From positions 186,001 through 250,000 of the forward strand of contig NZ_JAQTXM010000002.1 of the NCBI RefSeq assembly GCF_028688795.1: DNA of 64,000 bases, written 5' to 3'. A program made the position numbers and the translations under genes. How positions within the stretch are numbered: position 1 is the first letter of the stretch; each line of letters starts with the position of its first letter. The stretch comes from Rhodoferax sp. GTDB lineage: Bacteria > Pseudomonadota > Gammaproteobacteria > Burkholderiales > Burkholderiaceae_C. Positions 51,499-63,350 of the stretch are shown one piece after another. The notes beneath the pieces are model-generated. The model worked only from the letters and a program-made list of their open reading frames with translations, did no database searches and was not told the origin of the DNA.

Positions 51499-52332
51499 CT
51501 ATGAAAGGCGCATCGGCAGCGGCGCAAACCCATGGTTCAGCGGGCCGCTGCACTGGCCGGTTTTGACCGTTGCACCGGCTTGTAGCGCTTGGCGCACAAA
51601 GGCGCGGGCCTTTTGCACGGCCTCTGGCAGCGCAGCACCCAGCGCCAGATGCGCGGCAATGGCGCTTGAAAGTGTGCAACCCGTGCCATGGGTGTTGGCA
51701 GTGTGAATACGTGGGGCATGCATCCACAACGGCTCTTTTGCCGCTTCCAGCAGTAAATCCGTCACCGTGTCACCGGCCAGGTGCCCGCCTTTGAGCAGCA
51801 CCGCCCGCGCACCGCGCCCAATGAGTTCAGCCGCCGCCAGCGCCATGTCCTGCGGGCTACTTAATGGCCGCCCGACCAGCAAAGCCGCTTCATCCAGGTT
51901 TGGGGTGATCAGCATGGCACGCGGAAACATCTCGGCCACCAGCACGGCAATCGCCGGGTCATCAATCAACTTGGCGCCGCTGGTGGCGACCATCACCGGG
52001 TCAAACACCACGCGTTGCATCTGGTGGCGGTCAATTGCCTGGGCCACAGTGCGCACAATGTGGGGCGAATGCAGCATGCCCACCTTGACGGCATCCACCC
52101 CAATGTCTTCCAGCACCGCGTCGATCTGGTCACGCAGCATCTCAGGCGGTACGCCATGAATGCTGCGCACGCCGCAGGTGTTTTGGGCGGTGAGTGCGGT
52201 GATGGCCGTCATGCCATAGCAGCCTAACGCAGCAAAGGTTTTCAGGTCAGCCTGAATGCCGGCACCGCCGCCGCTGTCTGAACCCGCAATGGACAAGACC
52301 CGGGCATAGTGGTAAATTAGTTCAGTATTCAT
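51499..52332 (-). CDS. thiD: HMP kinase/HMP-P kinase ThiD
   Basis: A 277-residue ribokinase-fold enzyme that phosphorylates hydroxymethylpyrimidine twice. Motifs: VLSIAGSDSGGGAGIQADLKTF, VFDPVMVATSGA, LITPNLDEAALLVG, VLLKGGHLAGDTVTDLL, and the catalytic HGTGCTLSSAIAAHL. It is the third gene of a minus-strand thiM-thiE-thiD operon; a family A repeat covers the 82-base space before it and touches its start codon. Confidence 0.95.
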   Translation of the reverse strand: MNTELIYHYARVLSIAGSDSGGGAGIQADLKTFAALGCYGMTAITALTAQNTCGVRSIHGVPPEMLRDQIDAVLEDIGVDAVKVGMLHSPHIVRTVAQAIDRHQMQRVVFDPVMVATSGAKLIDDPAIAVLVAEMFPRAMLITPNLDEAALLVGRPLSSPQDMALAAAELIGRGARAVLLKGGHLAGDTVTDLLLEAAKEPLWMHAPRIHTANTHGTGCTLSSAIAAHLALGAALPEAVQKARAFVRQALQAGATVKTGQCSGPLNHGFAPLPMRLS

Positions 52333-52388
52333 AGCTACTCACGCTTATATATAAAGGTCTATAGCCCAAAAAGGCATATATTTTTTAA
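52325..52388 (+). repeat. Dispersed repeat, family A copy 11, thiE-thiD gap
   Basis: TTCATAGCTACTCACGCTTA, then AAAGGTCTATAGCCC. It overlaps the thiD start codon region and fills most of the gap to thiE. Confidence 0.7.
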
Positions 52389-52414
52389 CTTAGCCACAAG
52401 CCATGCCACTGAAG

Positions 52415-53089
52415 TCATGGATACCGGATCGGGTCCGACCTTTCATCTTCACTGAACGGCTGAAACAACCAGCCGAAAGACTGCGCTGCCGCGCTTGGGT
52501 CTGGCGCCGAACAAATGGCGCTGACCACTGCCAGCCCGTCAGCCCCCGCCAGCAGTACCTCCGCCGCGTTGGTCACATGCACACCGCCAATGGCCACCAG
52601 GGGCAACGCGGTCATGGCGCGCACCTGGCGCAAACCTGCCAGCCCCCAAGGCGCCGCCGTGTCGGTTTTGGTGGGCGTGGCATAAATCGGACTGACCCCC
52701 AGGTAGTCCACCGCTTGACCCGCTGCGCGCACCACATCGTCCAAAGATTCCACAGAAAGGCCAATGAACACCTCAGGCGGCAACAGCTGCCGGGCCAAGG
52801 CCACTGGCATGTCGGACTGCCCCAAATGCACACCCTGCGCACCACACGCCAGCGCCACGTCAATGCGGTCATTGATCACCAGCGGCACACCTGTGGGTGC
52901 CAGCAGGTCTTTCATGGCACGAGCCAGCGCCACGAAGTCGCGCGAACACAAGTCTTTTTCGCGCAGTTGCACGCAGGTCACACCGCCTTGCACAGCGGAC
53001 AGCACCACGTCGGTCAGGCTGCGCCCGCGCAGGTTTTTTTGGTCTGTCACCAGGTACAAGCGCAAGCTGGCAAGTAAATTAACTGACAT
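52415..53089 (-). CDS. thiE: Thiamine-phosphate synthase
   Basis: A 224-residue canonical ThiE barrel: LYLVTDQK, VQLREKDL, VINDRIDVALACGAQGVHLG, SVESLDDVVRAAGQAVDYLGVSPIYATPTK and VAIGGVHVTNAAEV. It couples HMP-PP with thiazole phosphate to form thiamin phosphate. It lies between thiM and thiD on the same strand. Confidence 0.93.
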   Translation of the reverse strand: MSVNLLASLRLYLVTDQKNLRGRSLTDVVLSAVQGGVTCVQLREKDLCSRDFVALARAMKDLLAPTGVPLVINDRIDVALACGAQGVHLGQSDMPVALARQLLPPEVFIGLSVESLDDVVRAAGQAVDYLGVSPIYATPTKTDTAAPWGLAGLRQVRAMTALPLVAIGGVHVTNAAEVLLAGADGLAVVSAICSAPDPSAAAQSFGWLFQPFSEDERSDPIRYP

Positions 53090-53222
53090 GGCTGCTCAGC
53101 CCCCAATGGATAAAAAGAGCGCGGTCATTGCAGAACCCGGAAATGGGCTTGGGCTAGATCGCCATGGCGACACGTATTCATGTGAAATGGGCCTGCAGCG
53201 TAGGAGCGAATGACAGCCATCG

Positions 53223-54056
53223 TCAATGCGCCGCCACTTCCAATTTCAAATGGCGCTCAAAGGTCGGTTCGTCCAACAACTGCAACTGGTCCAGCAGTGC
53301 AATTTGCAAGCTGCCCACGCCTCCGCCATGCGCCTGAACTTGCTGCGTGGCCACTTCGCCCACCACACCCAGGTAAGCCATGGCCGACAACGTGGCGCGC
53401 CAGGCATCTGGCTGCACGGCGCAAAACGCACCCACCAAGGCCGTAGCCGAGCAGCCCACGCCAGTGATGCGTGTCATCCACTCATGGCCGTTGGCCAGGC
53501 TGGCATGGCGGCCTTGTGCATCCAGCACATGGTCCACCGGGCCGCTGACACACACCACGCCGCCGGTGCGTTGAGCCAGGTCACGCGCGTATTGCAATGA
53601 ATCCGCCACCTCAGCACCGCTGTCGACACCCCGGGTTTGCGCAGCGCTGCCCGCCACACTCATGATCTCCGAGGCATTGCCTCGAATCACGCTTGGCATG
53701 GCCACATCCAGCAGCGCTGAAATACTATTGTTTCGATAGCTGGTAGCGCCCGCCCCTACTGGGTCAAGAACGGTTTTTATGCCTCGTTCTTTGGCTACTT
53801 TGAGGGCCAATTTCATGGCCTCGATCCAGTACGGCTCCAGCGTGCCAATGTTGAGCACCAGGGCTTGGGCGATGGCGGCCATGTCGGCCACTTCCTCATG
53901 CGCGTGCGCCATGACGGGTGCGGCACCCATGGCCAGCAGCACATTGGCATTGAGGTTCATCACGACAAAATTGGTGATGGAATGAACCAGGGGGTGCTGC
54001 TTGCGCACCGCCAGCACGTCAGCCCAGAGGTCAGAAGGTAAAAGTTGATTAGCCAC
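53223..54056 (-). CDS. thiM: Hydroxyethylthiazole kinase
   Basis: A 277-residue thiazole kinase for salvage. Motifs include [46 protein letters not shown] and [17 protein letters not shown]. The start is a GTG (54056) with GGAA about six bases upstream. It is first in a salvage operon thiM-thiE-thiD and is preceded by a TPP riboswitch. Confidence 0.94.
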
Positions 54057-54787: not shown

Positions 54788-57700
54788 ATGTGTTGGACTG
54801 AAACCATGAATTTCATACGCCAGATGTCCGAACGGGTGCGCATGTTGGGCCAATCCTTCCAGGCCAAGCTCACATTTATGCTGCTGCTGCCACTGATGGT
54901 CATTTGGACCAGTATTTTTCTTACATCAGCGACGATGCTGGAGCGGCAGCATCATTTTGTCGGCGATCAGCAAGTGTCCGCCACGAAGTTGCAGGCCGAT
55001 GAACTCAATGAAAAAATCAAAAATCTGTTGGCCATTCTTGAAGCAATTGCTGCCAGCATGGACCTTGCAGATTTGACCGGTACCCAAAATGCAACCGATT
55101 ACCTGTCCCAAAGGTACGCGCTAAAGCCGATGTTTCCTGCCGGCACCGTCATTTACGACCGCTCGGGAACGGCGCTGGGGGACTATCCGGTGGCGGCGGG
55201 GCGCAAGGGTAGCAACTTTGCGGATCGTGAATATCTGCAGCGCGTTTACGCCACCGGCAAGTCCTCTGTCAGCCAGCCCTTTATGGGTCGCTTTCTGAAC
55301 GTCATGCAAATCAGCATGTGCGTGCCCATAGTGGGGGCCGATCGGCAAGTCAATGGCGCGCTGTGCGGCAACTTAGACATGCAGGCGACTAACTTTTTTG
55401 GGCGTCTGTCCGCACCCCAATACATGGGCAACAACGGGTTCTTTCTGATATCGACTCGCGACCGCGTCCTCATTGCGTCCACCGACGGCAGCCGCGTCAT
55501 GTCTCAACTGCCAGACAACCCCTTGGTGCAACAACTGATGGCCGGCAGCGGTAAGGCCTTTGTGGCAAAAAACATCGCTGGCGTAGAGAAGCTGTATGCC
55601 AGTGCTCCAGTGGTCTCCGCCGGTTGGGCACTGGCGTTGGGCTTGCCCACAGACATTGCCTACGCCCCCGTTCGGACCACCGTGGGTGAGCTAAAAAGAG
55701 ATGCGTTACTGGCAACGCTGTTGGTCATTCTGGCCGCCTTCTTTTTTGCCCAGCGCATGCTAAGGCCCTTGCAGCAAGCGGGACTCAAGATGGATGCCAT
55801 GTCCAGCGGCCGCGAACCCCTGCAGCGTGTGGAGGAGACCGGTGACAACGAAGTACACCGACTGCTGACCAGCTTCAACCGACTGAGCGACAGCATGTCC
55901 AGTCAGCAAACCCAACTGCAAAGCGAGCGCAATGCACTGTTGCTGGCCAAGAGCGAACTGAGCCACCTCAATCAGGAACTGGAAGCCAGGGTGATGGGCG
56001 CAGCTGCAGATTTCACAGCGCTCAAAAATGCTGAGCAAAGGGTGAAGCAAGCCCGCAATGAGTTGTTGGGCATTTTTGACAACCTGGCTGAAGCTGTTTT
56101 TGTATTCGACAAACACGGAAAGATTCTGCGCATCAACCGCGTTGGCCGAAGCATGCACGGGCTGTTTGACCCCAGCACACCGCCTGCAGAGGTGATGGCG
56201 CAGATTGAAATCCTGCAGCCCAACGGCGAGGTGATGTCGCCTGAGCAGTGGCCGAGTCGCCGGGGCTTGCGCGGTGATTTTGTGACCGACCTTGAACTTC
56301 AAGTACGACGCAAAGACACCCGCACATTTGTTTGCAAGGAAGACAGCTCGGTGCCGATATTCGACGAGTCCGGTGAACTGCTCATGTATGTCGTTACCTC
56401 CAGAGATATCACCGAGCGAAAGCGTCACGAAAATTTGCTACGCGAAAGCGAGTTGAATTTACGCCAGAGCCATGCAGACCTCGAACAGCGCGTGAAAGAG
56501 CGCACTTCTGACCTTTTGACGGTCAATCGCAAGCTGGCCGAGACCCAATTCGCGATGGACAGCGTCGGTATTGGCATCCACTGGGTGGATGCGGATTCAG
56601 GCCGCTTTATCCAGGTCAACAAGATCGCCGCAGAAATGCTAGGTTATTCTGATGAGGAGATGCTTAGCCTGCGGGTGTCTGATATTGATCCGAATTTTCC
56701 GGAGGAGTCGCTTCTTCAGGCGTTGGGCGACTTTCGCCAGCAAGGAACGGCGCACTTTGACTCATCTAATCGAACTAAAGAGGGTCGCACAATCCCCGTC
56801 GATCTCACGCTCTATTTCCTGCCAGAGGTTGCAGACGAGCCACCACGTTTCATCGTGTTTGTAACAGACATTTCCAAGCGCAAGGATGCCGAGTTGGCTC
56901 TGATTCATGCCAGGAAACTGGCAGATGCAGCGAATCTGGCCAAGACCAATTTTTTAGCCAATATGAGCCACGAAATCCGATCGCCACTGAATGGCATTTT
57001 GGGCATGGCCTATTTGCTGGAGCAATCCAAACTGGACCATGATTCACACAGCATGGTGCGCAATATCAGAGCCTCGGGGCGTGCACTGCTGAGCCTGATC
57101 AACGACATACTGGACATGTCCAAAATCGAAGCCGGTCAGATGATGATCGAGCAAGCCCCGTTTCGGTTGGGTGATGTGATGGACAACGTGGCCGTGGCTT
57201 TGGGCGTGGCCGTTGGCGAGAAAGACATTGAGCTCGTTATTTCACCACTGCCAATCGGGGTTTCAAATACAGTGGGAGACGCCTTGCGGCTGGAACAGGT
57301 GCTGATCAACCTGATCAGCAATGCGGCGAAGTTCACGCAGACCGGCAGCATTCAAGTTCTCGCCGAGGTTCTCAGCGGTGTTAACACACTCAGCATCCTG
57401 CGTTTTTGTGTAAAAGACACCGGAGTTGGTATTGCGCCCGAGCTGCAAAATGGCATCTTCTCAGCTTTTGCACAGGCCGATACGTCAACCACCCGACGCT
57501 TTGGCGGCACTGGCCTGGGGCTAACGATTTGCCGTCAACTGGTGAGTTTGATGGGCGGTGAAATTGGCGTCATTAGCACGCCGGGCGAGGGCAGTGAATT
57601 CTGGTTTACCGTGCCACTGCTACAAGCGGAGGGTCCGAACTATTCACCTGCCAACATGATCGCTGTCAGCGTGCTGATTGCCGACGACAGCGACATTGCC

Positions 57701-59137
57701 TTGCGGGCCATTGCAGACACGGCTAAGGGCTTGGGCTGGAAAGTGAGCGCTGTGGACTGCGGTGCTGCCGCCCTGGCACATGTGCGGGAGTGCAAGCAGG
57801 GCCAGCTGCCCGATGTGGTGGTGCTGGACTGGCAAATGCCGGGTCTGGACGGGCTTGCCGCAGCGCGTTTGATTCGCGAGGGCGTGGCGCCGGACGAATG
57901 CCCGATCGTGATCATGGCCACGGCCCACTCACTTACCGGCCTAGCCGCTCAGCCAGGCGCAGCGCTGGTCGATGCCATTCTGCATAAACCAGTGACTTCA
58001 TCTGGCTTGTACAACGCGGTGATGGAGACCCAAAATCGGCGAGCCGCTACGGCAAAGGTTCTGCCGGTTGCCATGCAAGCGACCAGCGACAGTTTGGCAG
58101 GGCTGCGGGTGTTGGTAGTGGACGACAGCGACATCAACCGCGATGTAGCGCGACGCATTTTGGTCGGTGAAGGTGCCGTTGTGACGCTGGCAGAGGATGG
58201 CCAGCAGGCCATTGACTGGCTGCTGGCGCATGCAGGCGAGGTAGACATTGTGTTGATGGATGTGCAAATGCCGGTGCTCGATGGCATGGAGACAACCCGC
58301 AGATTGCGTCGCATGCCCAAATTCGCTGGTCTGCCCATCGTGGCGCTGACGGCAGGAGCCTTCAAGTCGCAGCAAGACGCTGCGATGGCAGCGGGCATGA
58401 CGCACTTTGTCAGCAAGCCGTTTGATATCCCATCCACCATTGCATTGATTCAACTGCTCTGCCGACCGTTACAGTTGGCGCAGGCCACGCAACCATCGCC
58501 AATAGTTAGGGCTGATTCATCAGCCACTGTCCAGGTTATGGACGTGGCGCAGGGGCTGAATCTTTGGACCGACACCCAAACCTATCAGTCCTATCTGCGC
58601 CGTTTTGCGAATGATTACTGCGATGTCGGCGTGCAGATACAGACCTGCCTGTCGCGGGGCGAGCGCGAAAGCGCTGCTTCCCTCGCGCACAAACTCTCTG
58701 GGGTCGCTGCCAACTTGGCCTTGCCCGACACACGCAGTGCAGCGCAAGCGCTGGAGCAAGTGTTGGGTACCCAAAACGACCCCGCGCTGACACTAACTCT
58801 ATTGAGTGAATCTCTGGCGGCCACAGTTGCAGAGATTAATCGTTACGCTTCACCTGCGACCGATGCCAATGAAGTGCCCAATACTGCCACGCAGGACCTG
58901 CAGACTTTGACCTCTGAACAGCAGCAAGCGCTCAAACCACTGCTGGTCCTGCTACTGGCAGCCCTTGATACTGACAATGCAACGCCTGTTAAAAAATGCC
59001 TGGCAGTGATGTCGCACCACTTGCCACCTGAGGCGTTGACCGCTATTTGGGCCAGCGTGTTGGGTTACGACTTTCGGGGCGCGGAAGCCCAGACCAGGCA
59101 ACTTGCCAGCTATTACAAAGCAGATTTAGGGACGTAA
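54788..59137 (+). CDS. Hybrid sensor histidine kinase with two receivers and Hpt
   Basis: A 1449-residue membrane phosphorelay protein: a helix at about 28-48, a Cache-type periplasmic domain (about 50-295; RKGSNFADREYLQRVYATGK), a second helix near 305-325, HAMP, a coiled coil, a PAS domain (about 425-550), a second PAS (about 590-700), HisKA with H728 (MSHEIRSPLNGIL), HATPase, receivers with D1014 (VLDWQMPG) and D1158 (LMDVQMPV), and an Hpt domain with H1301 (AHKLSG). All relay residues are intact. ATG 54788 or 54806 may be the start. It is followed directly by an HD-GYP regulator, its probable partner. Confidence 0.93.
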   Translation: MCWTETMNFIRQMSERVRMLGQSFQAKLTFMLLLPLMVIWTSIFLTSATMLERQHHFVGDQQVSATKLQADELNEKIKNLLAILEAIAASMDLADLTGTQNATDYLSQRYALKPMFPAGTVIYDRSGTALGDYPVAAGRKGSNFADREYLQRVYATGKSSVSQPFMGRFLNVMQISMCVPIVGADRQVNGALCGNLDMQATNFFGRLSAPQYMGNNGFFLISTRDRVLIASTDGSRVMSQLPDNPLVQQLMAGSGKAFVAKNIAGVEKLYASAPVVSAGWALALGLPTDIAYAPVRTTVGELKRDALLATLLVILAAFFFAQRMLRPLQQAGLKMDAMSSGREPLQRVEETGDNEVHRLLTSFNRLSDSMSSQQTQLQSERNALLLAKSELSHLNQELEARVMGAAADFTALKNAEQRVKQARNELLGIFDNLAEAVFVFDKHGKILRINRVGRSMHGLFDPSTPPAEVMAQIEILQPNGEVMSPEQWPSRRGLRGDFVTDLELQVRRKDTRTFVCKEDSSVPIFDESGELLMYVVTSRDITERKRHENLLRESELNLRQSHADLEQRVKERTSDLLTVNRKLAETQFAMDSVGIGIHWVDADSGRFIQVNKIAAEMLGYSDEEMLSLRVSDIDPNFPEESLLQALGDFRQQGTAHFDSSNRTKEGRTIPVDLTLYFLPEVADEPPRFIVFVTDISKRKDAELALIHARKLADAANLAKTNFLANMSHEIRSPLNGILGMAYLLEQSKLDHDSHSMVRNIRASGRALLSLINDILDMSKIEAGQMMIEQAPFRLGDVMDNVAVALGVAVGEKDIELVISPLPIGVSNTVGDALRLEQVLINLISNAAKFTQTGSIQVLAEVLSGVNTLSILRFCVKDTGVGIAPELQNGIFSAFAQADTSTTRRFGGTGLGLTICRQLVSLMGGEIGVISTPGEGSEFWFTVPLLQAEGPNYSPANMIAVSVLIADDSDIALRAIADTAKGLGWKVSAVDCGAAALAHVRECKQGQLPDVVVLDWQMPGLDGLAAARLIREGVAPDECPIVIMATAHSLTGLAAQPGAALVDAILHKPVTSSGLYNAVMETQNRRAATAKVLPVAMQATSDSLAGLRVLVVDDSDINRDVARRILVGEGAVVTLAEDGQQAIDWLLAHAGEVDIVLMDVQMPVLDGMETTRRLRRMPKFAGLPIVALTAGAFKSQQDAAMAAGMTHFVSKPFDIPSTIALIQLLCRPLQLAQATQPSPIVRADSSATVQVMDVAQGLNLWTDTQTYQSYLRRFANDYCDVGVQIQTCLSRGERESAASLAHKLSGVAANLALPDTRSAAQALEQVLGTQNDPALTLTLLSESLAATVAEINRYASPATDANEVPNTATQDLQTLTSEQQQALKPLLVLLLAALDTDNATPVKKCLAVMSHHLPPEALTAIWASVLGYDFRGAEAQTRQLASYYKADLGT

Positions 59138-59140
59138 ATC

Positions 59141-60157
59141 ATGGGAACACAAACAATATTGATCGTGGACGACGAGCCAGCCAACCTGGCCATCATGGAT
59201 GGCATTTTGCAGGCCAGTTACCGGCTGGCATTTGCACGCAACGGTGCTGAAGCTGTGGCGGCGGTGGCTAAACACCGACCAGCGTTGGTTTTGCTGGATG
59301 TTGGCTTACCAGACATCGATGGCTATGACTTATGCCGACAGATCCGGCAGATTGACCCTACGCAGGCTGTGCAAGTCATCTTTATCACCAGTTACAACGA
59401 TGCTGCACATGAAGCAGCTGGTTTTGATGCTGGCGGCGTGGACTACATCGTCAAACCAGTGTTGCCCCAGCTTGTACGCGCCAGAGTGAGCGCCCATTTG
59501 GCGCGGGTACAAGCCACGGTATTGGCGCAAAGCTACCGCGACGCCATTTTGATGCTGGGACATGCGGGACATTACAACGACACCGACACCGGTGCCCACA
59601 TCTGGCGCATGGCCGCCTACGCACGTGCGCTGGCACTGGCATGCGACTGGAGCATTGAGCGCAGTGACCAACTGGAACTCGCCGCCCCCATGCACGATAC
59701 CGGCAAGCTGGGGGTGCCACAAGCAATTTTGCGCAAACCGGGGCCTCTCGATGCGCAGGAGTGGGTCGTGATGCGCACCCATCCAAAGGTGGGCTTTGAT
59801 ATCTTGAGCAAAAGCCAGGCGCCAGTTTTTCAACTGGCGGCGGAGGTGTCTTTGCGCCATCACGAAAAATGGGATGGCAGTGGCTACCCCGATGGGTTGC
59901 GAGGCCATGACATACCGCAATCGGCCCGCATCGTGGCGCTGGCCGATGTGTTTGATGCGCTCAGCATGAAGCGGCCTTACAAGGACGCTTGGCCCATCGA
60001 GAAAATCATGGCGCACATCCAGACCGATGCGGGCAAGCACTTTGACCCTGAACTGGTGGCGGTGTTCACCCGAATCCTGCCAGAGATTCTTGGCATACAG
60101 AGTCGTTGGGCCGATGCGGACAACAAGCCGCAGGGCGAGGCGGTGAGTGTCATTTGA
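59141..60157 (+). CDS. Response regulator with HD-GYP phosphodiesterase domain
   Basis: A 338-residue regulator: receiver domain (1-120) with phosphoacceptor D53 (LLDVGLPDIDG) and K105, and an HD-GYP domain (about 130-330) with H185-D186 (MHDTGKLG), HHE at 240-242 and GYP at 248-250. All metal and motif residues are there, so it should hydrolyse c-di-GMP in response to phosphorylation. It starts three bases after the kinase gene, which makes the hybrid kinase its likely donor. Confidence 0.93.
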   Translation: MGTQTILIVDDEPANLAIMDGILQASYRLAFARNGAEAVAAVAKHRPALVLLDVGLPDIDGYDLCRQIRQIDPTQAVQVIFITSYNDAAHEAAGFDAGGVDYIVKPVLPQLVRARVSAHLARVQATVLAQSYRDAILMLGHAGHYNDTDTGAHIWRMAAYARALALACDWSIERSDQLELAAPMHDTGKLGVPQAILRKPGPLDAQEWVVMRTHPKVGFDILSKSQAPVFQLAAEVSLRHHEKWDGSGYPDGLRGHDIPQSARIVALADVFDALSMKRPYKDAWPIEKIMAHIQTDAGKHFDPELVAVFTRILPEILGIQSRWADADNKPQGEAVSVI

Positions 60158-60198
60158 GTCCATGGGTGAACCATAAAAAATAATTAGAGGATGTTGAA

Positions 60199-60468
60199 GT
60201 GACAACCACACAAATTCAAGATGCTCAGCCCACGGTTCTGGTGGTGGATGACGATGAATACAGTCAGGATCTGGCTCGTCTTACGCTAGGCAAACTGGGT
60301 TTCACCAGAATTCAAGTCGCACAGGACGGTAAAGATGGCCTGCGCGCTTTAGACGCGCTGGCGCAAGCACCTGACTTTCTCATTTGTGACATCTTTATGC
60401 CAAACAAGGATGGCATTGAATTCATGGCTGAGTTGGCGAAACGCAGTTACCGAGGGGTGTCGTGCTGA
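60199..60468 (+). pseudogene. Frameshifted receiver-domain remnant
   Basis: An 89-codon frame (GTG start, AGAGG upstream) encodes the first three quarters of a receiver domain: VLVVDDDEYSQDLARL, phosphoacceptor D64 in FLICDIFMPN. It then ends in RGVSC, before the switch residue and conserved Lys. Shifting frame at the G-run 60454-60457 restores VVLISGG, as expected for the next receiver strand, but that frame also stops at about 60529 with unrelated sequence. A one-base loss followed by decay of the rest is the simplest reading. Confidence 0.7.
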
Positions 60469-60564
60469 TCAGCGGGGGGTCAATGCCGCTAGTTGCGCCA
60501 TTCCACGTCAAAGTGAATGCCCCATGATTGGGCGACAATGGCTTTCACAATTGATGGGGGGTCC

Positions 60565-61392
60565 ATGCTGAATCAAGAAAAAATTCCAAACATCCTTGCC
60601 AGAAACAACGTCAAAGTCCTCGCAGGTGCTGGTCCGGTGCTTTTGTACGCCCATGGATTTGGCTGCAACCAAAACATGTGGGATCGTGTGACGCCAGCCT
60701 TCACTTCTACGCATCAACAAGTACTATTCGACTACGTGGGCAGCGGCAAGTCCGACATATCGGCGTTTGATCCAGACAAATATGCAAACCTGACTGGCTA
60801 TGCGCAAGACGTTCTAGATATCTGCGATGCCTTGGATTTGAAGAGTGGCGTCACCTTCGTCGGTCATTCGGTCAGTTGCAGTGTCGGCATACTGGCTTCC
60901 ATCGCCCGCCCTGGCCTCTTCGACAAGTTAGTTCTGTTGGGCGCCAACCCCTGCTTCGTCAATCATCCGCCATCATATGTTGGCGGCTTTGAGAAAGAAG
61001 ACCTCGATGGTCTACTTGACCTGATGGATCAAAACTACATTGGCTGGGCCAACTACCTTGCACCGGTCGTATCAGCACAAGATGGCCAAGGGTTGGTGAC
61101 CAAAGAGCTTTCAGAAAGTTTTTGTTCGACCGATCCAATGGTTGCAAAAGTCTTTGCCCGCACGACGTTTTTTTCAGACAACAGGAAGGACCTGCCCAAG
61201 GTTGCTATGCCCTGCCTGATTCTTCAGCATCGCGCAGACTCGCTCGCCCCGATCAGCGTCGGGGAATACGTCCACACACACTTGGCAGGTAGCACCCTCA
61301 AGGTGTTGGAAGTGCATGGCCACTGCGCTCACATGAGCGACCCACAGTTGGTGGTCGAAGCAATGCGCGAGTTTATTGATATGCCTGCCTAG
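60565..61392 (+). CDS. RsbQ-type alpha/beta hydrolase
   Basis: A 275-residue alpha/beta hydrolase of the RsbQ/KAI2/D14 type. It opens NILARNNVKVLAGAGPVLLY and AHGFGCNQNMWDRV, then FDYVGSGKSD; the triad is S102 (GHSVS), D225 and H253 (HGHCAHMS). Triad spacing (123 and 28 residues) equals that of Bacillus RsbQ (S96, D219, H247). RsbQ is the partner of a PAS-domain regulator, and here the next gene encodes a PAS protein with a GGDEF output. ATG 60565 stands behind GGGGGG and gives the RsbQ N-terminus; upstream ATGs at 60517 and 60538 are open. Confidence 0.9.
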   Translation: MLNQEKIPNILARNNVKVLAGAGPVLLYAHGFGCNQNMWDRVTPAFTSTHQQVLFDYVGSGKSDISAFDPDKYANLTGYAQDVLDICDALDLKSGVTFVGHSVSCSVGILASIARPGLFDKLVLLGANPCFVNHPPSYVGGFEKEDLDGLLDLMDQNYIGWANYLAPVVSAQDGQGLVTKELSESFCSTDPMVAKVFARTTFFSDNRKDLPKVAMPCLILQHRADSLAPISVGEYVHTHLAGSTLKVLEVHGHCAHMSDPQLVVEAMREFIDMPA

Positions 61393-61406
61393 CGATTGGA
61401 ATAGGC

Positions 61407-63044
61407 ATGCCTACTTTTGACCAACTGCCTTGCCCGGCTTTAGTGACGGACCGGGCGGGTGTAGTTCAATTGATCAACCAGAGCTTGCTTCAACTTGTGG
61501 GGGGCGTCACAAACACCTGGTTCTCGAAACCGATGGACCTCATGTTTCCCGGCGCAAGCCGGATATTCCTGCAAACCCATGTTTGGCCCATGGTGCTGCG
61601 TGAAGGCCAAGTCCGTGAAATCCGTCTGCAAGTTTTGGGCGATACGGGCAACCGGGTTCCAGTGTTCGTGAACTGTCAAAGATCAACTATTGAGACGACT
61701 GACAGCTACACCTGGGTCTTCTTTGTGACGGTCGAGCGCAGTCGGTATGAGCAGGAGTTGCTGGAAGCCAAGCAAAGGGCAGAGGCAATATCTGCTGAAC
61801 TTGCCAAAAGCGACAAATTCATCCGAACGGTTGCAGATGCATTGCCCAGCTTGATTTCACGCTGGGACCTTCAGATGCAGTGTCAATTTGCAAACAAACC
61901 GTTCCTGCAGTGGTTTGGACGAACACCGCAGGACATGGTGGGCCTATCTCTTTCAACAATGTTAGGCGCTAGTCTGTTTGAGAAGAACTTGGCCCATATA
62001 CAGGGCGTGTTGGCCGGTGAGCGTCAGGAATTCGAGCGCGCAATTGCACGGCCGGATGGTTCTGTTGGATACGTCTTGACCAATTACATCCCTGACATTG
62101 ATCCGAATGGTCAAGTCCAAGGATTTTTTGTGCTTGCGACCGACATCACTGGCCTGAGGGAGGCTGACGCAGCGATTCGACTGTCTGCCAGTGTCTTTGA
62201 GGCCACGGCCGAAGGCATCATGGTGACTGATACAGCCGCAACGATTGTTTCTGTGAACTCTGCATTTACCGCGCTTACGGGCTACACATCAATGGAGGTA
62301 GTTGGGGTGAATGCACGCATCCTGAAGTCCGGCCGCCATGATGCAGCCTTCTTTGGCGACATGTTTGCGCAATTGCAGGCAACCAAATTGTGGAAGGGTG
62401 AGGTCTGGAGTAAGCGAAAGGACGGTTCGATCTTTCTAGCGCGACTCAGCATTTCTTCTATATGCAACGAAGCCGGAGATGTAAGTCGCTATGTCGGCGT
62501 AATTGCCGACATAACTGAACACTGGGACAAAGAACAGCTTGTGCAGCATATGGCGCTGCACGATGGCCTCACAGGGTTGGCAAATCGCACGCTCTTGATG
62601 GAGCGACTCAGTCAGTTGATCGCCAAAACGGTCCGTGAGTCGAGAAACATCGCATTGATGTTTCTCGATTTAGACGGCTTCAAATCCATCAATGACACTT
62701 ATGGTCACGAAGTCGGTGATTTGGCCTTGAAGACCGTTTCAGCACGGCTTTTAGGGTTGCTTCGCAACTTAGACACAGTAGCGCGCCTGGGTGGTGACGA
62801 GTTTTTGATTTTGCTCGACAACCCGGAAAGTTGTGAAAAAATTGCCATGGTGGCCTCGCGTGTGATCGAAGTGGTAAATGGCCCCATGAATCTTGATGGC
62901 ACGACTGTCCATGTCGGTACATCCATTGGAATCGCAACTTTTCAGAATGATGGAATGTCGGCAACTGATCTGCTCAAGCGGGCTGACGATGCCATGTATG
63001 TTGCCAAGAAATCCGGTAAGAATTCCTTCCGGTTTTCCGGCTGA
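61407..63044 (+). CDS. PAS-GGDEF diguanylate cyclase
   Basis: A 545-residue soluble protein: three PAS-like domains (about 1-115, 130-250 and 258-378) and a C-terminal GGDEF domain. The active motif GGDEF is at 462-466, and RNLD precedes it by five residues, the RxxD inhibitory site. The first PAS domain (LPCPALVTDRAGVVQLINQS) lacks obvious cofactor residues. The gene begins 14 bases after the RsbQ-like gene. I infer that the hydrolase's product, or its conformational change, is sensed by a PAS domain, coupling a small hydrophobic ligand to c-di-GMP output. Confidence 0.92.
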   Translation: MPTFDQLPCPALVTDRAGVVQLINQSLLQLVGGVTNTWFSKPMDLMFPGASRIFLQTHVWPMVLREGQVREIRLQVLGDTGNRVPVFVNCQRSTIETTDSYTWVFFVTVERSRYEQELLEAKQRAEAISAELAKSDKFIRTVADALPSLISRWDLQMQCQFANKPFLQWFGRTPQDMVGLSLSTMLGASLFEKNLAHIQGVLAGERQEFERAIARPDGSVGYVLTNYIPDIDPNGQVQGFFVLATDITGLREADAAIRLSASVFEATAEGIMVTDTAATIVSVNSAFTALTGYTSMEVVGVNARILKSGRHDAAFFGDMFAQLQATKLWKGEVWSKRKDGSIFLARLSISSICNEAGDVSRYVGVIADITEHWDKEQLVQHMALHDGLTGLANRTLLMERLSQLIAKTVRESRNIALMFLDLDGFKSINDTYGHEVGDLALKTVSARLLGLLRNLDTVARLGGDEFLILLDNPESCEKIAMVASRVIEVVNGPMNLDGTTVHVGTSIGIATFQNDGMSATDLLKRADDAMYVAKKSGKNSFRFSG

Positions 63045-63136: not shown

Positions 63137-63350
63137 TCAACCGCATCTGCTGATTTCGAGTTGCTCATATTCCAGAAACGCCTGAACAATATCCGGTACC
63201 AATGTGGTCAGATTCACCATTCGGCTGGTGTAGCTGTTGTCGACACCTTCGCGCTTGGCGATCTCCCTCAGCGACTTCACCTCGCCCCGAATTAATCGCG
63301 CAATTGACTTACTCGAAAGCTGCCAGTGGCGAACGACTCTAAACGCTACT
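63137..63350 (-). pseudogene. Fragment of a serine recombinase/resolvase-type protein
   Basis: With no start codon, the minus strand encodes SIARLIRGEVKSLREIAKRE, then GVDNSYTSRMVNLTTLVPDI and VQAFLEYEQLEISRCG. This resembles the helix-turn-helix region near the end of large recombinases (GEVKS-I-x-E-IAxREGV...LAPDIVEAIL). An in-frame stop lies immediately before. Only this piece remains, so it is a relic of a former mobile element or prophage. Confidence 0.65.

Follow-up and report, generated by a model that had tools for sequence, protein, structure and literature searches.

The 64,000 nucleotides of Rhodoferax sp. DNA analyzed here (the window) contain a gene for an RsbQ-family hydrolase followed, 14 bases after its stop codon, by the start of a gene for a PAS-GGDEF protein. 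These two genes, the domains of the second and the genes preceding the pair are as follows:

54788-59137, upstream of the pair: hybrid kinase (dCache, HAMP, PAS, PAS, HisKA, HATPase, two receivers, Hpt)
59141-60157, upstream of the pair: RR-HD-GYP gene
60199-60468, between the HD-GYP gene and rsbQ: receiver-domain gene that stops early
60565..61392, + strand: RsbQ-family alpha/beta hydrolase, 275 residues, triad S102, D225 and H253
61407..63044, + strand: partner protein, 545 residues, with RsbP-type PAS, linker helix, PAS, PAS and GGDEF
61407..61727, + strand: PAS1 (residues 1-107), RsbP-PAS class, no DIT motif at its end
61728..61841, + strand: predicted helix joining PAS1 to PAS2 (residues 108-145; from a structure model, uncertain)
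61836..62159, + strand: PAS2 (about residues 144-251), an ordinary PAS domain carrying DIT close to its end
62193..62519, + strand: PAS3 (about residues 263-371), an ordinary PAS domain that ends in a DIT motif
62553..63023, + strand: GGDEF domain (residues 383-539), with the GGDEF signature at residues 462-466 and the inhibitory-site motif RNLD at residues 453-456

The hydrolase and its partner protein

Among solved structures, the hydrolase matches RsbQ from Bacillus subtilis best (1wom, over residues 8-271, E 2.3e-92), followed by 3qvm (E 5e-77) and 7ukb, both of which we take to be bacterial, with KAI2-like chains ranking after these. The triad aligns to positions 98, 221 and 249 of the 1wom chain, all shifted by 2 from what we take to be the RsbQ numbering (S96, D219 and H247), and across 90 aligned RsbQ rows the serine is kept in 89, the aspartate in 89 and the histidine in 88. 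A reading of this DNA made from the sequence only had named the triad and an HGFGCNQ loop; the loop reads AHGFGCNQ, with F32, G33, C34 and Q36 each present in at least 95% of the 90 rows and N35 in 64 of them. With near full-length similarity to RsbQ and a Ser-Asp-His triad, the product of 60565-61392 is, as judged from its sequence, a clear RsbQ homologue, as that reading had proposed. The start at 60565 is also taken from it, and a second in-frame ATG, at 60517, is possible. Metabolic names for the hydrolase were rejected, all 23 NCBIfam matches being under their cut-offs. In the window's genome a single RsbQ match reaches E 0.001 or better.

The plant hormone receptors KAI2 and D14 share their fold and triad with RsbQ, and the hydrolase belongs to the same family by sequence. 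Its closest relatives among solved structures, however, are not of plant origin, the best plant KAI2/D14-type chain scoring E 3.8e-57, far behind RsbQ, and its partner is a PAS protein, whereas the plant proteins work with F-box and repressor proteins.

The partner protein ends in a GGDEF domain (PF00990, E 1.8e-48) with RNLD five residues ahead of the signature (RNLD-TVARL-GGDEF), which gives it both sequence marks of a diguanylate cyclase with product inhibition, the GG(D/E)EF signature and RxxD at five-residue spacing. The 14-base gap, the three PAS domains and the GGDEF domain with its RxxD site had all been read from the sequence beforehand, and the Pfam, profile and structure-model results bear the domains out: PAS2 and PAS3 are above the Pfam cut-off, and PAS1, which falls below it when scanned alone, adopts a PAS fold in the model of the whole protein (mean pLDDT 84, pTM 0.43). 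The helix at residues 108-145 is predicted with low confidence, pLDDT staying at 50-63 across the 10-residue blocks that cover residues 111 to 150.

Adjacent pairs of this kind were described by Nadezhdin, Brody and Price (2011; PMC3183031), who listed 45 RsbQ/RsbP-PAS pairs whose output is a phosphatase, a histidine kinase or a diguanylate cyclase, some of them with one or two additional PAS domains. A coiled coil of at least 21 residues leads to the output in 36 of the 45, the exceptions including proteins with extra PAS domains, and the RsbP-PAS class lacks the DIT motif that ends the PAS domains of its outgroup (PMC3183031). The coupling of the RsbQ-PAS module to kinases and cyclases was restated in a 2025 eLife paper, and an AlphaFold2 model of RsbP/RsbQ places RsbQ between the PAS domains and linkers (PMC12143880). 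Among the literature matches listed, none examines an RsbQ-cyclase pair by biochemistry or genetics, and none on strigolactones and diguanylate cyclases is on topic by its title.

PAS1 carries matches at nine positions of the RsbP-PAS class, C9, L12, F47, R52, F54, L55, H58, E71 and P85, all at a constant offset of -1 from C10, L13, L48, Q53, F55, C56, Y59, E72 and P86 of RsbP, the consensus types being taken from the figure legend of the 2011 paper (PMC3183031) and from our own alignment of 78 first PAS domains, four rows of which are second copies from the same genomes. P61 likewise corresponds to P62 of RsbP. Across these rows E71 is kept in all 78, P61 and P85 in 75 each and F54 in 71; R52 is arginine in 65, and position 58 is histidine in 57 and tyrosine in 19. 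The outward-facing pair of the F-alpha helix, F55 and Y59 in RsbP, is thus kept in the window as F54 and H58, while the C56 position shows the most residue types of the tested positions (at least eight). PAS1 ends in VFFVTVERSR, without DIT, and PAS2 and PAS3 have TDIT and ADIT. Against a profile of RsbQ-linked first PAS domains, PAS1 scored 187 bits and PAS2 and PAS3 about 13-14 bits; the profile contains PAS1 of the window by construction, so that the contrast counts and not the score, and on this contrast we rejected an assignment of PAS1 as an ordinary PAS domain.

The window pair therefore resembles the published RsbQ-PAS-cyclase module in the rsbQ gene directly upstream, in an RsbP-type PAS domain that is the most N-terminal one, with the class residues and without DIT, and in a GGDEF output, extra PAS domains being known there too; it departs from the plain PAS-coil-output plan in its two further PAS domains and weakly predicted helix (PMC3183031). 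With B. subtilis RsbQ/RsbP it shares the near full-length RsbQ match and a PAS1 with the RsbQ-contact residues, but its output is GGDEF where that of RsbP is a PPM phosphatase. The sequence-only reading was right to name RsbQ, to give it a PAS partner and to see c-di-GMP as the output; the pairing and both models of signalling had, however, already been published in 2011, in a paper whose main text does not name Rhodoferax (PMC3183031). We conclude that the pair is a sound new example of the module described then, and not a discovery.

RsbQ loci in other genomes

We collected 93 RsbQ loci: 73 came from 77 pattern matches in genome contigs, and 18 of 198 related genomes, that of the window among them, supplied the other 20. 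Removal of four second copies, of locus L055 and of three loci whose contigs end at the hydrolase or within 150 bases of it, and addition of the window, left 86 distinct loci. An RsbP-type PAS domain of at least 110 readable residues is encoded next to RsbQ in 74 of the 86, in a survey whose searches favour close relatives of the window's RsbQ, so that its shares do not describe all RsbQ. With this many loci having the partner next door, the adjacency is far beyond chance, and the conservation of the pair outside the window's genome, on which the sequence-only reading depended, holds. At one further locus (L038) the neighbouring RsbP-type PAS frame stops after 35 residues. No RsbP-type PAS was found in the stretch examined at 11 of the 86, which means that RsbQ occurs also without such a neighbour.

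The outputs of the 74 partners are 56 cyclases, 13 kinases (nine by motif, L014 and L088 by Pfam, L089 and L093 from the Pfam tally) and five that have no assigned output, in two of which the frame stops early (L008, L026), in two the stretch ends (L010, L025) and in one no output domain was found (L078). Cyclases are thus the commonest output (56/74) in this sample biased to close RsbQ relatives. RxxD is present in 49 of the 56 cyclases. Of the 79 partner proteins, 59 were searched with Pfam, and 48 of these have GGDEF, 10 HATPase and four EAL. For 73 of the 75 pairs, RsbQ and partner are separated by -20 to +56 bases; the outliers are L048 and L092, where stops in the hydrolase frames upset the measurement. 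On the RsbQ tree the kinase label requires at least six changes, or three if only starred branches are trusted, in a count that used the nine motif labels and predates the four Pfam additions. Relatives of RsbQ below 60% identity are also carried on plasmids; of the 59 such records, 34 have a mobilizable or conjugative type.

Several loci differ in arrangement. In Paenibacillus (L078:6816-7412), RsbQ is followed by a 199-residue open reading frame with an RsbP-type PAS and no Pfam output domain. In Bdellovibrionales (L085:4444-6807), a PAS histidine kinase lies 3 bases upstream of RsbQ, in reversed order; we rejected it as a reversed pair, its PAS domains fitting the RsbP-PAS profile weakly (best stretch 12 bits). 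Five Marinomonas homologues (L074, L077, L079, L080 and L086) cluster together (SH-aLRT 100), and the stretches examined around them show no RsbP-type PAS; a Na/H exchanger gene lies upstream of RsbQ in L074 and an open reading frame of equal length in L080. At L048:6001-6816 and L092:164-871 the RsbQ frame contains stops although the PAS-GGEEF frame of the following gene is open, the stops reflecting either a decayed hydrolase or an assembly error. In Hydrogenophaga (L054:1300-5082), a 1261-residue protein with a SIR2_2 domain is encoded about 900 bases ahead of rsbQ, and the stretch examined there shows no RsbP-type PAS. Long open frames were noticed by their length at L008, L010, L017 and L038; Pfam matches nothing in the first ~480 residues of the one at L017.

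The co-variation check proposed with the sequence-only reading was carried out on 52 cyclase pairs, whose RsbQ distances follow those of PAS1 closely (r 0.91) and those of GGDEF less so (r 0.49), with PAS1-GGDEF at 0.61. Rank correlations for RsbQ-PAS1, RsbQ-GGDEF and PAS1-GGDEF, taken in this sequence, are 0.88, 0.25 and 0.34 (Spearman); the three values are 0.80, 0.43 and 0.57 within the 44 closer pairs and 0.87, 0.35 and 0.40 with corrected distances. In random-half controls the halves of RsbQ correlated at 0.88 and those of GGDEF at 0.90. The partial correlation of RsbQ with PAS1 given GGDEF is 0.85, and that of RsbQ with GGDEF given PAS1 is 0.006; none of 999 permutations, which ignore relatedness, reached the RsbQ-PAS1 value or its partial. 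Because PAS1 and GGDEF lie in one gene, linkage alone predicts a PAS1-GGDEF tie at least as strong as that between RsbQ and PAS1, and this was not found. From these sequence distances we read RsbQ and PAS1 as one inherited input unit whose outputs would have been exchanged. Adjacent genes share their history, so the RsbQ-PAS1 correlation is no proof of contact.

Surroundings of the pair

The receiver-domain gene at 60199-60468 is probably a remnant, to judge from a receiver-like reading that continues briefly in another frame and then fades. Of the 12 HD-GYP loci that were fetched, none but the window's copy gives a good match to the receiver gene, or a match to the junction DNA at 60150-60580; receiver-like stretches also lie upstream of several HD-GYP relatives in the genus. 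Downstream of the pair, no frames of at least 80 codons are listed between 63054 and 63567; a minus-strand stretch of 70 codons at 63140-63349, with no significant Pfam match, resembles a recombinase tail. Further upstream, three open reading frames at 51499-54056 on the minus strand resemble the thiamine genes thiD, thiE and thiM. The scan for promoters and terminators returned 3 and 4 sites, where shuffled sequence gave means of 2.3 and 3.4. GC content is 0.49-0.54 over the pair and 0.50-0.62 upstream, which gives no clear sign of a foreign origin.

A proposed route from hydrolase to cyclase

In B. subtilis, the PAS domain is necessary and sufficient for RsbQ binding in the yeast two-hybrid assay, and the outward-facing F55 and Y59 of its F-alpha helix are required for RsbQ contact and signalling, the F55A and Y59A variants being null (the Y59A protein is also less abundant); the cleft-facing Q53 and C56 are dispensable, and the RsbQ triad is needed (PMC3183031). 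The 2011 paper offered two models, delivery of a hydrolysis product to the PAS domain or contact by the occupied hydrolase (PMC3183031). From this work we infer that the window pair, too, would rely on contact between RsbQ and PAS1 and would need the triad.

On balance we consider it probable that the pair is a bipartite sensing module with a cyclase output, in which a ligand-responsive RsbQ contacts the first PAS domain and so sets c-di-GMP synthesis. The hydrolase would bind, and probably slowly hydrolyze, a small hydrophobic ligand, and its ligand state would be read through direct contact with the F-alpha helix of PAS1 (F54 and H58). The change would then travel through helix 108-145 to PAS2 and PAS3 and on to the paired GGDEF domains, which would set c-di-GMP synthesis, with product feedback at the RxxD site. 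The partner protein probably makes c-di-GMP under the control of the hydrolase, with PAS2 and PAS3 probably contributing inputs of their own. Given the weakly predicted coiled coil and the two PAS domains between PAS1 and GGDEF, PAS1 may be a minor input.

Small-ligand binding is common in PAS domains, which counts for a different route in which the hydrolase product would be placed in the cleft of PAS1 as a signal or cofactor, PAS1 itself being the sensor. The cleft-facing R52, arginine in 65 of the 78 rows, is what such a hand-over would allow, and so is a triad conserved in nearly every row and required in B. subtilis; the route is Model 1 of the 2011 paper (PMC3183031) and was also the idea of the sequence-only reading. 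It sits poorly with the dispensability of the cleft-facing Q53 and C56 of RsbP, when the outward F55 and Y59 are required (PMC3183031), and with the C56 position being the most variable of those tested, and we hold it to be rather unlikely. We favour contact because, by analogy, B. subtilis needs F55 and Y59 and not Q53 and C56, and the window keeps F54 and H58.

The hydrolase might instead be an esterase of metabolism, encoded in one operon with the cyclase but not signalling through it, input coming from PAS2 and PAS3, which have the features of ordinary sensory PAS domains and end in DIT. RsbQ loci that have no RsbP-type PAS in the stretch examined (11/86), as well as the two loci with stops in the hydrolase frame and open cyclase frames (L048 and L092), would suit this; yet PAS1 retains the residues that bind RsbQ in B. 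subtilis and tracks RsbQ rather than its own GGDEF domain, and the RsbQ-PAS1 unit is joined to kinases at other loci, so that we give the esterase very little weight. Hardly any weight goes to the pair being part of a larger operon that would also take in the hybrid kinase, the RR-HD-GYP gene and the receiver gene upstream. All of these genes lie on one strand within about 8 kb, but the intervening receiver gene looks broken, and within the genus the 13 genomes (of 89) with an HD-GYP relative at E 1e-90 or better and the 11 with RsbQ at E 1e-50 or better have only the window's genome in common. Moreover, among the RsbQ loci only the window's copy (L001) exceeds 37.1% identity in an HD-GYP match, in stretches of which many span only 1.5 kb. 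The pair's system probably does not include the upstream kinase and HD-GYP genes.

We know of no ligand for cyclase-paired RsbQ-type hydrolases; a 2024 Curr. Biol. study by Melville et al. reportedly deals with butenolide hydrolysis and with effects on sigma-B and biofilm. It is conceivable, and in our view distinctly unlikely, that the pair serves bacteria as a receptor by which a butenolide, a strigolactone-like compound or another plant- or smoke-derived lactone is turned directly into a c-di-GMP decision over biofilm or motility through the hydrolase-receptor chemistry of KAI2 and D14, with an input unit that moves between bacteria and between outputs. To the work of 2011 the survey adds that cyclases are the commonest output in a sample biased to close relatives, and that RsbQ and the first PAS domain change together while the cyclase domain follows loosely. 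The cyclase output of such pairs would offer an easy c-di-GMP readout for ligand screening.
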